A stretch of DNA of 64,000 nucleotides from Sulfurimonas hongkongensis (GTDB lineage Bacteria > Campylobacterota > Campylobacteria > Campylobacterales > Sulfurimonadaceae): the NCBI RefSeq assembly GCF_000445475.1, contig NZ_AUPZ01000002.1, forward strand, positions 248,001-312,000. Reading direction: 5' to 3'. The position numbers and the translations under genes are program-made. Of the stretch, positions 11,946-18,744 are shown one piece after another. Under the pieces are notes generated by a model. The model made no database searches and had not been told where the DNA came from. It saw only the letters and a list, made by a program, of their open reading frames with translations. The first letter of the stretch is position 1. Each line of letters begins with the position of its first letter.

Positions 11946-12680
11946 ATGCAAATATTTGGAAAGTACTCAACAAACTTTGATATGGACTACTTAGTAGAAC
12001 AATATATTTATTTTAATGAGAGTGATGAAGATGAAATCACTACCGATGAGCTTGAAATTCTACTCAAAAAAAAGAGAAAAAATGTAGCTGGGACTATCAT
12101 ACTTTACAACCCTGAAACAAGCCCAGTAGGCTTTAAACTTAGTAGATTTTTAAAAGAAGATGGCTTTGATGGGTATGATAAATTTGTTACACTTAATGAA
12201 TACCCTATGAGTTATGTTATAAATGCAGGACTTAAAAAAGTATATCCTAAAAAACTTGTAGAGATAAAGTACCTTTTTTCACTTAACAGAGAAAACATAG
12301 AACCAACACCCATCTTAGAAGAGTTTGATGCTGATTTAGACAAGTTCAACTCGAACCAATACACAAGATACGATAAAAAATTAAACTATCTTGATATCCC
12401 AAACATTAGACTTAGTGGTAAGTTTGTCTTTTTTGGCTCTGGTCACAAGCATGACAGACACCATAAAGCTATCATCGCCTATGTTAGAGCCTTGTCTGCT
12501 CAAGTTCAAAAGTTAGATAAAAATATAGTATTTATGTATGACAATAACCATGATGAGGATGAAGCTCTAGAGATTGGCTACTTTTTATCTCCACTAGCTT
12601 TAGGAAAAGCAAAAGAATTAAGAGCAAAAGGTTTTAAAGAGGCTTTTAAAACGATACCACCAAAAGTTCAAAAGCTATAA
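11946..12680 (+). CDS. Conserved protein of unknown function
   Basis: A 244-aa protein without signal peptide or membrane segment. The N-terminus is acidic (YFNESDEDEITTDELEILL), the centre has a Lys-rich patch, and GSGHKHDRHHKAIIAYVRAL at about 172-191 is a His-rich stretch that might bind metal or nucleotide. I recognise no named domain. The start follows an ATAAGGA site. It abuts the ATP-grasp gene tail to tail with no spacer. Confidence 0.75.
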   Translation: MQIFGKYSTNFDMDYLVEQYIYFNESDEDEITTDELEILLKKKRKNVAGTIILYNPETSPVGFKLSRFLKEDGFDGYDKFVTLNEYPMSYVINAGLKKVYPKKLVEIKYLFSLNRENIEPTPILEEFDADLDKFNSNQYTRYDKKLNYLDIPNIRLSGKFVFFGSGHKHDRHHKAIIAYVRALSAQVQKLDKNIVFMYDNNHDEDEALEIGYFLSPLALGKAKELRAKGFKEAFKTIPPKVQKL

Positions 12681-13634
12681 TTAAAAATTTTCAAAACCAA
12701 GAACAAATTCTACTCTCTTTTGTACATTAGCTCTTTTAGAGGCTACTTTTTCTTTTTCTATCTTTCTAAGGCGAGGAAGCAACCCTTTAGAGTTAGCTAC
12801 TTGTATGGAAAGTCCTGGTCTTGCATTTAGCTCTAAAAGCATAGCACCTTTGTTTTTATCGAGTACTATATCTGCACCTAAATAACCAAGATTAGTCATA
12901 TCATAACAGCTACATGCTAAGAGTAGAAGTTCCTTCCAATTGTCTATTTTTATACCATCAAAACTATGTTTTGTATCTGGATGAATAAGAATTTTTTCAC
13001 TATTCATTACAGCGTTTATTGGCTTACCTGTTTTGATATCAAGCCCAACGCCAACTGCTCCTTGATGCAAGTTCGCTTTGCCATCTGACGCTTTTGTAGA
13101 GAGACGAAGCATAGCCATCACAGGATAGCCTTGAAAAACTATGATACGGATATCGGGAACACCTTGATAAGAGTAATCATCAAACACGGCATCTGCTTCT
13201 ATCAAAGTCTCTACAAGTGCGACATCTTGGTCCCCAGAGAGTGAGTAAAGTCCTGCTAAAATATTTGTAACATGCTTCGTTACCTCTTGAAGTCCTATAA
13301 CCATACCACTCGATTTGATAAAGCCGTCACCATCTCTACCTTTGATAACCAAAATCCCTTTACCACCAGAACCACATGCTGGTTTTATAGCAAAAGAAGA
13401 GATGTTTTTTAGCTTTTCTAAAAGTCTATAAACATCATGTTGATATCGTACAACAAAAAGAAGCTCAGGAGTATTTATACCATACTCTTGTGCTAAGAGT
13501 TTAGTTTGAAGCTTATTATCTACAAGAGGAAATAGTTTGCGGTCATTGTAGCGACTGATAAACTCAATATTGCGACTATTCATCCCCAATATTCCTCTTC
13601 TCTTAAGTGTAAAAGGTCCTATGAAGTTTAACAT
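12681..13634 (-). CDS. RimK-like ATP-grasp ligase (alpha-L-glutamate ligase-like)
   Basis: Cytoplasmic ATP-grasp enzyme expected to form an amide or peptide bond using ATP. Visible ATP-grasp elements are FAIKPACGSGGKGILVI (nucleotide-binding glycine loop), IRIIVFQGYPVMAMLRL and the metal-binding ELNARPGLSIQVAN. It is the last of three genes transcribed together; its ATG follows the stop of the transglutaminase-like gene directly. The same trio recurs in many Proteobacteria, where the ligase, an inactive transglutaminase and a retropepsin-like protein are predicted to modify peptides at the envelope. The substrate is not known from sequence. Confidence 0.88.
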   Translation of the reverse strand: MLNFIGPFTLKRRGILGMNSRNIEFISRYNDRKLFPLVDNKLQTKLLAQEYGINTPELLFVVRYQHDVYRLLEKLKNISSFAIKPACGSGGKGILVIKGRDGDGFIKSSGMVIGLQEVTKHVTNILAGLYSLSGDQDVALVETLIEADAVFDDYSYQGVPDIRIIVFQGYPVMAMLRLSTKASDGKANLHQGAVGVGLDIKTGKPINAVMNSEKILIHPDTKHSFDGIKIDNWKELLLLACSCYDMTNLGYLGADIVLDKNKGAMLLELNARPGLSIQVANSKGLLPRLRKIEKEKVASKRANVQKRVEFVLGFENF

Positions 13635-15155
13635 TTAAATATTTTTAAACTCACGGAAACGACGAAGTTCTAAGAGTCTATAACCGGTATATCTTCCCAT
13701 TAAAATCATAAGTGCAATAACTATAAGATGAAGCTCAGGAAAGTTAAAAAATAGATGTGCTACATATCCATTGATCATCGCCATATAAGCAAGTATCGCA
13801 ACCAAAAGACTTCCACTTCCTTGTGTTAAAACCTCTTTTGCACCCTCTTCTTCCCATAGTATAGACATTCTTTCTATTGTCCATGCAAGGATTATTATAG
13901 GGAAAAATGCTACACTCATCCCAGTATTGAATCCCATCTCATACCCTATAAGAGTCATAAATGCGACTAAAAATATAACGATAACTATGATAGTAGCAAT
14001 CCTAGAAACTAGTAAAAGGTTAAGATTTGAGAGGTAACCTCTAAGCAGAAGTCCGATAGCAACAAGAACAACAAAATTTAGTAGTCCTAAAAAGAGTGAT
14101 GTTTGTAAAAAGGCCATAGCGATAAGCACAGGCATAAATGTTCCAGAGGTCTTTACGCCAATGATTAGACGCATAAAAACAGTTATGAGCGCACCAATAG
14201 GTAAAAGAAGAAGCATTTTAAAGATACTTTGTTCCTCTATTGGCAAACGATGAACGCTAAAGATACCAAATCCACTCTCATCAAAATGAGCCTTTGCAAG
14301 TTCAAGTGCTGGCATATTTTGCTTAACCATTGAAAAATTTACTGTTGCATTTGTTCCACCTACAACATCTATGAGTGATTTTCCACCTCTTGTCCACAAA
14401 AGGAAGTTTTTGTTTACATCTTGTAGTGCATTTTTTGGATCAAATAGTATCCACTCACCTTTATCCAAAACTTCTATTACAGAGGTGAGTGCTTTATTAC
14501 GCCTTGCATCTTCTAGTTCTAGTGCAAGAGATACTCTATGCACAACTCCTGCATCAGTTAAGAGTTTACTAAGCACATCCATATAGTTATGCTTAAGTAA
14601 AAGCAGAGAACTATCATCTCTTTTTTCTATATTTTTAAGAATTTTAATAAGCTCTCTGGTAAAAGTGATATTGTTACTTGATTTTGCATATGCAAGGTCG
14701 AGTATCTCTTTTGCAGCTATCTGCTCAGAAGCACTCCATAAAATATCATCTTTAGGATTTAGTTTTGACTCAACTTTGTTTAAAGGCAGATCATCTGTGA
14801 AGTCTTGAACAATCTGTGCCTTATAGTAGAGGACCTGTTTTCCTTTTGCTTGACGAATGCTCCACTCTCCACGCTTGATGCCATCTTTTTGCACCATACT
14901 AAAACCATACCCAGCTGAGACACTCTGCTCAAAATAGAGTTTATATCCTGAAGTATCCTCAGGTAAAGATAAACTAACAGTTATAGGCGTGTTGTTTTGT
15001 GCTTTAAACTCCACTCTTGCTTCAACCATCCAAACATCTTTTTTCTCACTTGATAAAAAAGGAATCTGCGTTTGTTCATGTCTCATTATGGCTATAAAAA
15101 CACCTAAGAGTGCTAAAAAAAATACAAATAAATATAAGAGGTTTTTGGATATCAT
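13635..15155 (-). CDS. Inactive transglutaminase-like domain fused to a seven-helix membrane domain
   Basis: A 506-aa protein with an N-terminal membrane anchor (about 7-25), a periplasmic transglutaminase-like region (about 30-290) and about seven transmembrane helices in the C-terminal 200 residues. In this region the Cys-His-Asp triad of transglutaminases is not evident, and cysteine is absent from the protein, in line with the family name. It overlaps the upstream lipoprotein gene as TAATG and touches the ATP-grasp gene, so the trio is very likely one operon. It may scaffold a substrate for the ligase and the retropepsin-like protein; that is inference. Confidence 0.87.
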   Translation of the reverse strand: MISKNLLYLFVFFLALLGVFIAIMRHEQTQIPFLSSEKKDVWMVEARVEFKAQNNTPITVSLSLPEDTSGYKLYFEQSVSAGYGFSMVQKDGIKRGEWSIRQAKGKQVLYYKAQIVQDFTDDLPLNKVESKLNPKDDILWSASEQIAAKEILDLAYAKSSNNITFTRELIKILKNIEKRDDSSLLLLKHNYMDVLSKLLTDAGVVHRVSLALELEDARRNKALTSVIEVLDKGEWILFDPKNALQDVNKNFLLWTRGGKSLIDVVGGTNATVNFSMVKQNMPALELAKAHFDESGFGIFSVHRLPIEEQSIFKMLLLLPIGALITVFMRLIIGVKTSGTFMPVLIAMAFLQTSLFLGLLNFVVLVAIGLLLRGYLSNLNLLLVSRIATIIVIVIFLVAFMTLIGYEMGFNTGMSVAFFPIIILAWTIERMSILWEEEGAKEVLTQGSGSLLVAILAYMAMINGYVAHLFFNFPELHLIVIALMILMGRYTGYRLLELRRFREFKNI

Positions 15156-15934
15156 TATTTTGTTTTTTTTCTTATAACTAATGGAGCTAGATATTCTTCG
15201 CTAACATCAACAACCATAACATCTTGAAGCGCACTACGTCCAATCAACATCGGATATTTCATATGCTCTCTATTTGTAAGAGTAAATTCACTTAACTCTT
15301 TTTTATCTCCAATAGTTATTTTAAGCACAACTATCACTCTTTTTTCATAATCTTTTTCAAGTGAAGATTGTGAAATTCTCACAACTCGAACTACTTTACG
15401 CTCTACAACATGCGATGTGCCTGTTTCTCTGTCGACTAAGGTAAATCGCACCCATTTTTTGCCATCTCTCTCAAACCTTGTTATCTCTCTTGCATCTATA
15501 GAAGAAGTCTCAGCACCTGTGTCTATCCTAGCCTCCATAACAAAGTTAGATGGATAAACATGCACTCTCTCAACACTTCCAATAACTAGCTTTTCTTTAA
15601 GAGATAGTATTTTATTTTCAACTATTATAGGTTTTTGTTTAGTTTTTACAACCTTTGTTTTAACAGGCTTTGCAGGTTTAAGTAGAGTGATCAAGTCGCT
15701 TTTTAAAGACTCAAAACTCTTAGCTTGTTGCAAAAGAGAAGTCTCTAATAATCTTTTATAATTTTCATCATGTTTTTCTAGTTTAGTATCTAGTTTTTGG
15801 CTTAAGTTTTGCTCTAAATTAGTTATCTGCTTATTTAGTGCATCAAGGTGTTGAGTGTTTGTTGTCGTGTACGCTTGTGTGCATCCACTTAAGAAAAAAA
15901 TTAAGAAAAAATATAAAAGATTTTTTACAACCAT
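15155..15934 (-). CDS. Retropepsin-like (RimB/ATP-dependent zinc protease family) lipoprotein
   Basis: The N-terminus has a lipoprotein signal peptide with lipobox LSGC, then a coiled-coil spacer (about 30-110), then a C-terminal domain with RIDTGAETSSIDA, the DTG signature of retropepsin-type aspartic peptidases. Older annotation calls this family ATP-dependent zinc protease; the motif supports an aspartic-peptidase fold instead. KVVRVV, EFTLTNR and MLIGRSAL are further conserved blocks. First gene of the trio with the transglutaminase-like and ATP-grasp genes. Membrane anchoring puts it in the periplasm. Confidence 0.85.
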   Translation of the reverse strand: MVVKNLLYFFLIFFLSGCTQAYTTTNTQHLDALNKQITNLEQNLSQKLDTKLEKHDENYKRLLETSLLQQAKSFESLKSDLITLLKPAKPVKTKVVKTKQKPIIVENKILSLKEKLVIGSVERVHVYPSNFVMEARIDTGAETSSIDAREITRFERDGKKWVRFTLVDRETGTSHVVERKVVRVVRISQSSLEKDYEKRVIVVLKITIGDKKELSEFTLTNREHMKYPMLIGRSALQDVMVVDVSEEYLAPLVIRKKTK

Positions 15935-16020
15935 TTTGCACCATTACTAAATAATTTTTTTTGCATTATATCTCACTTTTTAGTAATGTTACAATAGCTA
16001 TATTATAAAATTTTGTTAAA

Positions 16021-16107
16021 TTGAACCTTCTGATTAGTCTATAAACTAGATTCCGTGTCAAGCACGGAATGACGGAACACGCGTCATCCTGAACTTGATT
16101 CAGGATC
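16021..16107. repeat. Dispersed double-hairpin repeat, copy 1
   Basis: Holds two perfect hairpins: ATTCCGTG/CACGGAAT (16050-16070, 5-base loop) and ATCCTGAA/TTCAGGAT (16086-16106, 5-base loop), separated by a short GACGGAACACGCGT spacer. A diverged, oppositely oriented copy is at 51633-51763. Repeats with these hairpin cores occur in noncoding DNA of unrelated bacteria. It fills most of the gap between glyS and the lipoprotein gene. Confidence 0.8.
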
Positions 16108-16171
16108 TACCTTAATAATTGTTCAGAGCACTCAGTTGTTTATAGCATTCAATTAAAGAAACCTTTTAAAA

Positions 16172-18357: not shown

Positions 18358-18744
18358 ATGCCAAAGATTAACAAATATGTTGATATAGATACAGTAGAGA
18401 GAGAAGCTAAAAAAGATCTTATAGACCGTCACTCTCCATTTATCCACTGTGCGAGCACTGCAAAAGCTGGTGAGCCATTTGAAGTAACTGTAAAAATGGG
18501 TAACGAGTACTCTCATCCTGATGATTTTGATCACTACATAGAGAGTATTACACTATTTAATGGCGAAACAAAACTTGCAACTGCCTCTTATGTTCCGGGA
18601 ACTCTGGGAAATGTAAAAGCTCACAACACTACAACTTTTACAATCATCCCAACTAGCAAAAAACTAAACCTTGTAGCTCACGGATACTGTACAAAACACG
18701 GCATCTGGGAGAGCACACCTGTTACTGTAGAAGTAACAGCGTAA
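18358..18744 (+). CDS. sor: Superoxide reductase (neelaredoxin / class II desulfoferrodoxin type)
   Basis: Small cytoplasmic iron protein that reduces superoxide to hydrogen peroxide without making oxygen. The four-His one-Cys iron site is visible: His in DRHSPF, two His in YSHPDDFDHYI, and Cys plus His in GYCTKHGIWE. There is no N-terminal rubredoxin-like (FeCys4) domain, so this is the one-iron class, 128 aa. It stands alone with an AAAGGA ribosome site and is followed directly by a strong hairpin terminator, so it is probably monocistronic. It suits a microaerophile. Confidence 0.92.
   Translation: MPKINKYVDIDTVEREAKKDLIDRHSPFIHCASTAKAGEPFEVTVKMGNEYSHPDDFDHYIESITLFNGETKLATASYVPGTLGNVKAHNTTTFTIIPTSKKLNLVAHGYCTKHGIWESTPVTVEVTA

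Follow-up and report, generated by a model that had tools for sequence, protein, structure and literature searches.

A Campylobacterota Rlo operon with a predicted retropepsin-like lipoprotein, and three builds of its membrane protein and ligase pair

Sulfurimonas hongkongensis carries a retropepsin-like lipoprotein, a protein joining an inactive transglutaminase domain to seven transmembrane helices (7TM), and an ATP-grasp ligase in three adjoining genes. The genes lie in the window analysed here, a stretch of 64,000 nucleotides (positions 248,001 to 312,000 of contig NZ_AUPZ01000002.1). Sequence comparison makes it nearly certain that the trio is a member of the Rlo operons from Campylobacterota: a secreted PF05618 protein, a PF14400/PF14402 protein and a TIGR02291 ligase are encoded by touching genes on the same strand, the combination by which Rlo membership is recognised. 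By the coordinates of the open reading frames (ORFs), the gene order is rloA, rloB, rloC, with an overlap of 1 base between the first two and a gap of 0 between the last two, in agreement with a first-pass annotation of this DNA, which had the three genes touching or overlapping. This kind of operon is already known. What the window copy adds is a protease tethered to the envelope, and the comparison of three builds of the operon is the result most worth following.

The window trio and its known relatives

The trio was reportedly described by comparative genomics by Iyer et al. in 2009. The first-pass annotation likewise considered it known by comparative genomics, with its chemistry poorly described; this is still true of the product and of the roles of RloB and RloC, but not of RloA, on which structures, cleavage of polyglutamate and epistasis data have been published (PMC12239564, mBio 2025). 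In Pseudomonas aeruginosa, RloA, RloA2 and RloA3 are secreted retropepsin-like proteins redundantly needed at low osmolarity, where deletion of rloB or rloC restores growth of the rloA1-3 mutant (PMC12239564). Purified RloA cuts reporters with 8 or 10 glutamates, but not with 6 or fewer, and cleaves glutamate-tagged RpsF in vitro; no polyglutamate substrate encoded in the genome emerged from a search of the proteome (PMC12239564). RloA R114A, R137A and D48A fail to complement (PMC12239564). RloC is predicted to be cytoplasmic, the Rlo phenotypes include cell shape and cell-wall antibiotics, and the product of the operon and the role of RloB were left open (PMC12239564). A transposon screen connects the overproduction and the size of vesicles with an inactive transglutaminase-7TM gene (PMC12096838).

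The window trio resembles rloABC of P. aeruginosa in its three families, their order, the touching genes, the inactive transglutaminase-7TM protein and the polyglutamate contacts of RloA (PMC12239564). It differs in that its RloA, a lipoprotein, has a long linker (about 100 residues) and no Cys in the domain, and in that its RloA and RloB fall below the cut-offs of the NCBIfam models. In the published account, periplasmic orthologs are said to have a disulfide, and the main text nowhere uses the word "lipoprotein" (PMC12239564).

Window RloA matches PF05618 with 128.8 bits (curated Pfam cut-off 27), and its relatives in the Protein Data Bank are 9g58, 9g59 and 2pma. Of the NCBIfam models, RloA3 is nearest (118 bits against a cut-off of 210), followed by RloA2 (94.4 against 250) and RloA1 (93.4 against 280). 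The export signal, a signal sequence with an LSGC lipobox (C18), was recognised by reading the sequence, and IDTGAETS occupies residues 137-144; the lipoprotein with a DTGAETS signature had been annotated correctly. D138 matches D48 of P. aeruginosa RloA, while R136, R183, R199 and R222 align with the polyglutamate contacts K46, R92, R114 and R137, the first being a K to R replacement. Among 142 RloA frames from operons, counted wherever a residue stands at the column, the catalytic D48 column holds D in 137 of 139 and the R114 column R in all 141; R137 is R in 140 of 142, K46 is K or R in 138 of 139 and R92 is R or K in 137 of 141. At two further loci, L248 and L249, the catalytic Asp is replaced and the contact Arg kept, as at the Cellvibrio loci L059 and L063 considered below (S and N occur among this set). 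A lipobox-like motif was found by pattern in 104 of the 141 RloA proteins checked. The window retropepsin domain has no Cys, nor have 112 of the 142 operon frames, and for this reason the Cys pair of the periplasmic orthologs, absent in the window, is not treated as operon-defining.

RimB and RimK are also a retropepsin and an ATP-grasp ligase, with folds related to those of RloA and RloC; unlike RloA of the window, RimB is made without a signal peptide, and RimK carries an additional N-terminal domain that RloC lacks. RimB is recognised as a cytoplasmic protein encoded next to RimK, and window RloA, with a lipoprotein signal and no adjoining rimK, is not RimB. The window genome carries a rimB-rimK pair at another place, apart from the trio. 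A genome of the same genus encodes a RimB-RimK hybrid of 472 amino acids (L046, 11376-12794, plus strand) about 3.3 kb from its rlo 7TM gene.

Window RloB scores above the curated Pfam cut-offs for PF14400 (154.8 bits) and PF14402 (344.7 bits), and reaches 323.6 bits against the NCBIfam RloB model NF052267, below its cut-off of 900. No sequence relative was found among solved structures up to an E value of 1. An AlphaFold2 model was obtained with a mean predicted local distance difference test score (pLDDT) of 85.7. Its periplasmic part compares with 3isr, a transglutaminase-like cysteine protease of Cytophaga hutchinsonii (Z 14.0, 4.0 Å, 218 residues aligned), and in Foldseek the chains of 3isr alone fell under an E value of 0.001, the next match standing at 0.012. 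Unlike 3isr, RloB lacks the Cys and His: among 155 aligned RloB proteins, that of the window shows a gap at the Cys column, T at the His column and D at the Asp column, which bears out the annotated transglutaminase fold without catalytic Cys. Likenesses of the 7TM domain to AcrB and NqrD were set aside as too weak.

The RimK-like ligase of the first-pass annotation was also confirmed. Window RloC reaches 414.5 bits against TIGR02291 (cut-off 314.2) and, above the curated cut-offs of Pfam, 304 bits against PF14397 and a weaker 42.1 bits against RimK PF08443. The best fold matches of its AlphaFold2 model (pLDDT 88.4) are ArgX 3vpb (Z 18.2, 3.2 Å, 219 residues aligned), RimK 5zct (Z 17.1, 3.4 Å, 218) and cyanophycin synthetase 7wae (Z 16.6, 4.2 Å, 229). 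These are ligases of amino acids or peptide polymers, which was counted in favour of chain building. By alignment, R163 and N270 are the equivalents of RimK R189 and N262, residues that hold the last glutamate; most polyglutamate contacts of RimK (S7, R8, S14, R64 and S68) lie in its N-terminal domain (PMC10092738).

Three builds around a 7TM protein and a ligase

RloB proteins were taken from family loci, from the 80 best among no fewer than 582 loci, a set biased to close relatives, and from a draw of Pseudomonadota. Thirty short duplicate loci and frames of less than 250 amino acids were dropped, and 160 RloB proteins became 155 by collapsing identical last 300 residues. PF14402 was detected in 24 of 228 genomes of the family, in 4 of 249 drawn across the phylum Campylobacterota (1 of the 11 same-genus members counted within this draw) and in 58 of 349 drawn across Pseudomonadota, the phylum of Cellvibrio.

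The build of the window, type I, comprises the 144 RloB proteins among the 155 whose transglutaminase domain lacks the Cys-His-Asp triad. An RloA frame lies directly upstream on the same strand in 142 of the 144, RloC was called in 139, and both neighbours are present in 137. The RloA-RloB-RloC arrangement is not a matter of chance. RloB and RloC are coupled, given that they are at most 10 nt apart in all 139 type I loci with RloC called and form one polypeptide at two fusion loci. Of the two type I loci without adjacent RloA, L107 starts at a contig end and L230 (genome G664) has a secreted RloA elsewhere; PF05618 was detected in each of the 14 type I genomes that were searched in full. Of the 142 RloA frames, three are incomplete, those of L043 and L223 (frames of 64-95 amino acids near contig ends) and the broken frame of L105. 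The dead domain of type I has conserved residues of its own, among them R101 in 140 of 144 proteins and G266 in all 144, neither of which occurs in the 9 type II rows, suggesting that the domain retains a binding role. The 7TM features GTFxP, R372, ER (428-429) and RF (499-500) are common to types I and II.

Type II RloB proteins have an intact triad in an ASCNGK context (9 loci in 8 genomes of the locus table), and none of the 9 loci has an adjacent RloA. In two later finds, L237 and L238, a transglutaminase core with the triad is fused to the 7TM and ATP-grasp parts; both lie on short contigs that give a limited view of neighbours. A secreted retropepsin was not found in any of the 10 intact-triad genomes, some of them incomplete: PF05618 was not found in six (G282, G643, G746, G531, G607 and G885) and was solely RimB-like, without a signal peptide, in four, encoded beside RimK in G280, G285 and G567 and as a RimB-RimK fusion in G854. 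A tetratricopeptide-repeat (TPR)-type protein is encoded downstream in all 11 type II sets; all 11 match mutually, and 3 were scanned with Pfam. Outer-membrane-like proteins, related to one another, follow in 7 sets (one partial), with one for two sets at L054. Such a protein is missing in L055, and the contigs of L173 and L238 end before its place. At L054 (5630-13716, plus strand), genes for an active-type 7TM protein, an ATP-grasp protein, a TPR protein, a second active-type 7TM protein and a second TPR protein stand in tandem.

Type III consists of 5 loci in 4 genomes (L176, L177 and L239-L241) in which a short 7TM protein without transglutaminase is followed by RloC. The adjacency rule skipped RloC at L176, where the two reading frames share more than 200 nt, and it was seen there directly. 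The protein encoded upstream has weak beta-barrel matches, a signal by eye in 4 of 5 cases and a C-terminal Phe in 5 of 5. The five are interrelated, and those of L177, L240 and L176 match the outer-membrane-like protein of type II locus L237 (E 1e-7 to 2e-4); this relationship links types II and III. The type III genomes G602, G558, G946 and G933 encode PF05618 proteins without an evident signal peptide, and in G602 rimB-rimK lies directly upstream of the type III set. At L176 (3674-7922, plus strand), rimB, rimK, an outer-membrane-like gene, a short 7TM gene and a rloC-like gene stand in a row.

The pair constant over the three builds is the 7TM protein and the ATP-grasp ligase; the periplasmic and outer-membrane equipment varies. 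Intact transglutaminase, often a peptidase fold, and secreted retropepsin are mutually exclusive in the sample, which fits one exchange of the trimming enzyme. A 7TM tree of 64 rows, built by a quick method and lacking L237, L238 and L239-L241, requires just one change to account for the active group. On this ground the idea that the active/inactive switch evolved repeatedly was rejected, and the single change makes a correlation test over independent events impossible. Read from the tree, the trimmer switch is one event kept through divergence and not a replicated correlation. In the same tree the window clusters with three further Campylobacterota rows (support 98), nested in a mostly gammaproteobacterial set of 23 rows (99), and six other Campylobacterota rows, one from the same genus as the window, form a separate group (91). 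Campylobacterota thus hold two or more RloB lineages, most simply explained by transfer in either direction. The comparison of three builds was not met in the literature searched, a body of mostly listings, abstracts and passages with Iyer et al. 2009 outside it.

Possible roles of the operon

The best explanation of these observations, mostly inferred and given about even chances, is the synthesis of a glutamate-rich chain by RloC, its export by RloB and its trimming by RloA. Cytoplasmic RloC would use ATP to make a glutamate-rich anionic alpha-peptide chain, free or on an acceptor, and the 7TM domain of RloB would carry or present this chain across the inner membrane. The dead transglutaminase domain may then hold the chain in the periplasm, where RloA, on its lipid and long linker and probably at the outer membrane, would cut it and so limit its length or amount. 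Untrimmed product would be harmful at low osmolarity. A ligase in the cytoplasm that is coupled to a membrane protein, together with an outside trimmer, fits chain synthesis and export, and TPR and outer-membrane-like partners, as in types II and III, are expected of an exported product.

The first-pass annotation had proposed a peptide-tagging or peptide-trimming system across the inner membrane. Assembly on one side of the membrane and trimming on the other fits the genetics and the conserved residues; the small peptide looked for near the trio was not found. The comparison covered 2463 small ORFs lying no more than 1 kb from the trio at type I loci for which both neighbours had been called. 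None of those from Campylobacterota had a match outside the phylum, and a small peptide gene was rejected as a general partner. The large clusters of small ORFs that were inspected come from related loci (mainly Marinobacter and Vibrio examples) and resemble shadow frames of adjacent genes, and the small ORFs of the window matched L045 alone. Suppression of the rloA1-3 defect by deletion of rloB alone argues against a ligase that acts on a soluble metabolite independently of its partners, an activity that it may still have in vitro.

Several observations weigh against synthesis, export and trimming of a glutamate chain. The N-terminal domain that bears most polyglutamate contacts in RimK is missing from RloC by alignment, so that glutamate is only presumed to be its substrate. 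The resemblance of the 7TM domain to NqrD (Z 8.0) is no closer than helical bundles show by chance, the outer-membrane assignment of the partner proteins is weak, with all Pfam matches below cut-off, and the contrast of active and inactive transglutaminase is one change on the tree, not repeated events. The operon RloA frame of L105, from a Desulfuromonas metagenome assembly, is broken by a real mutation or an assembly error; this genome has one further PF05618 frame. Two Cellvibrio operon RloA lipoproteins lack the catalytic Asp (L059, D to N; L063, D to S) and retain the R114 and R137 equivalents, and the sole further PF05618 protein found in these draft genomes is RimB-like, without a signal peptide. 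Since the only secreted RloA of two drafts lacks this residue, RloA proteolysis appears not to be needed everywhere that RloBC occurs. Either RloA works there without cutting, or the product is harmless in Cellvibrio, or the drafts miss an active copy.

The Cellvibrio proteins would also suit a role for RloA chiefly as a binding or scaffold subunit of RloBC, with proteolysis secondary, and RimB is reported to stimulate RimK in addition to cutting. This role is nevertheless very unlikely given that D48 is so widely conserved and that D48A fails complementation in P. aeruginosa (PMC12239564). It is somewhat less improbable, but still unlikely, that RloBC puts glutamate chains on periplasmic or membrane proteins and RloA removes them, as an envelope analogue of RimK and RimB, which are reported to add glutamate chains to RpsF and remove them. 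The cleavage of glutamate-tagged RpsF by RloA agrees with such tagging, but the published proteome search found no encoded polyglutamate substrate (PMC12239564), and proteins modified by a cytoplasmic RloC would need later export. More serious, though doubtful, is the idea that RloC attaches a single amino acid or a few to a precursor of the envelope (a lipid-linked sugar, peptidoglycan precursor or lipid) that RloB flips or handles, with RloA acting on the product or regulating a cell-wall enzyme and polyglutamate a substrate in vitro only. The top Pfam match of RloC, PF14397, is named "sugar-transfer associated ATP-grasp", the missing glutamate-track domain of RimK points the same way, and in P. 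aeruginosa the phenotypes affect the shape of the cell and its response to cell-wall antibiotics (PMC12239564). Precursor modification is hard to reconcile with basic polyglutamate contacts kept in nearly all operon RloA and with the failure of R114A and R137A in vivo; moreover, no sugar-transfer gene was seen among the few neighbours scanned, which were not annotated systematically.

Synthesis, export and trimming of a chain has a counterpart in the poly-gamma-glutamate Cap/Pgs systems, which combine an ATP-dependent ligase, a small membrane protein and an outside depolymerase; the likeness is at most one of working. No CapB or CapC match was found for the RloB and RloC proteins scanned with Pfam, and the systems differ in protease class and probably in linkage. 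Taking the three builds together, it is possible, though only tentatively proposed, that the 7TM protein and RloC form a modular core by which Gram-negative bacteria make a poly-amino-acid chain and export it, rloABC being one of three builds. Intact transglutaminase would trim the chain in type II, with TPR and outer-membrane-like proteins carrying it to the surface, type III would have the core and a related outer-membrane-like protein alone, and the dead domain and retropepsin of the window would reflect one exchange of trimmer.

Surroundings and significance

The gene of 672 amino acids that lies 237 nt upstream of rloA on the same strand is one we take to be glyS. Promoter-like and stem-loop patterns in the gap between them (15935..16171) are no more frequent than in shuffled sequence, and terminator patterns are likewise at the shuffled level. 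The gap was compared with L045, the sole aligned relative with identical neighbours. It contains an 8-pair stem (16050-16070, minus strand) and a 31-residue frame that is 97% alike in L045, yet the DNA is equally conserved. A convergent gene of 244 amino acids (11946-12680, plus strand) stops one base before rloC and is 92% identical in L045; Pfam and NCBIfam scans gave no match to it. A desulfoferrodoxin-domain protein (PF01880) is encoded close to the operon (18358-18744, plus strand). Recent transfer was considered from composition and set aside, the G+C content of rloC (0.365), rloB (0.353) and rloA (0.323) giving no signal against a 3-kb mean of 0.343 (standard deviation 0.018).

Table 1. 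Positions of the trio, its parts and the two fusion genes (window positions unless a locus is named)
Feature	Position	Strand	Basis or remark
rloA, retropepsin-like lipoprotein, 259 aa	15155..15934	-	ORF; PF05618
Lipobox LSGC, residues 15-18 (C18, followed by T, Q)	15881..15892	-	Sequence
RloA linker, residues 19 to ~116, coiled-coil-like by eye	15587..15880	-	Sequence
Retropepsin domain, residues 117-250	15185..15586	-	Pfam, structure relatives, alignment
rloB, inactive transglutaminase domain and 7TM, 506 aa	13635..15155	-	PF14400, PF14402
Periplasmic transglutaminase-like part, ~residues 25-282, without catalytic Cys/His	14310..15083	-	Alignment, fold match
7TM domain (Pfam 260-503)	13647..14378	-	PF14402, alignment
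rloC, ATP-grasp ligase, 317 aa	12681..13634	-	TIGR02291, alignment
Upstream gap, 237 nt, between 672-aa gene and rloA	15935..16171	-	Nearly unchanged in L045
One-polypeptide transglutaminase-7TM-ATP-grasp	L238 1851-4301	+	Active-type
Transglutaminase-7TM-ATP-grasp fusion	L237 1154-3160	+	N-terminal part in separate upstream frame

The Rlo operon influences osmotic tolerance, biofilm and resistance to cell-wall drugs in P. aeruginosa. The natural variants, namely the fused transglutaminase-7TM-ligase, the builds without RloA and Cellvibrio with its dead RloA, make the question of the RloBC product and its trimmer testable. If the reading of synthesis and export is true, an alpha-linked poly-amino-acid pathway would join the envelope polymers of Gram-negative bacteria.

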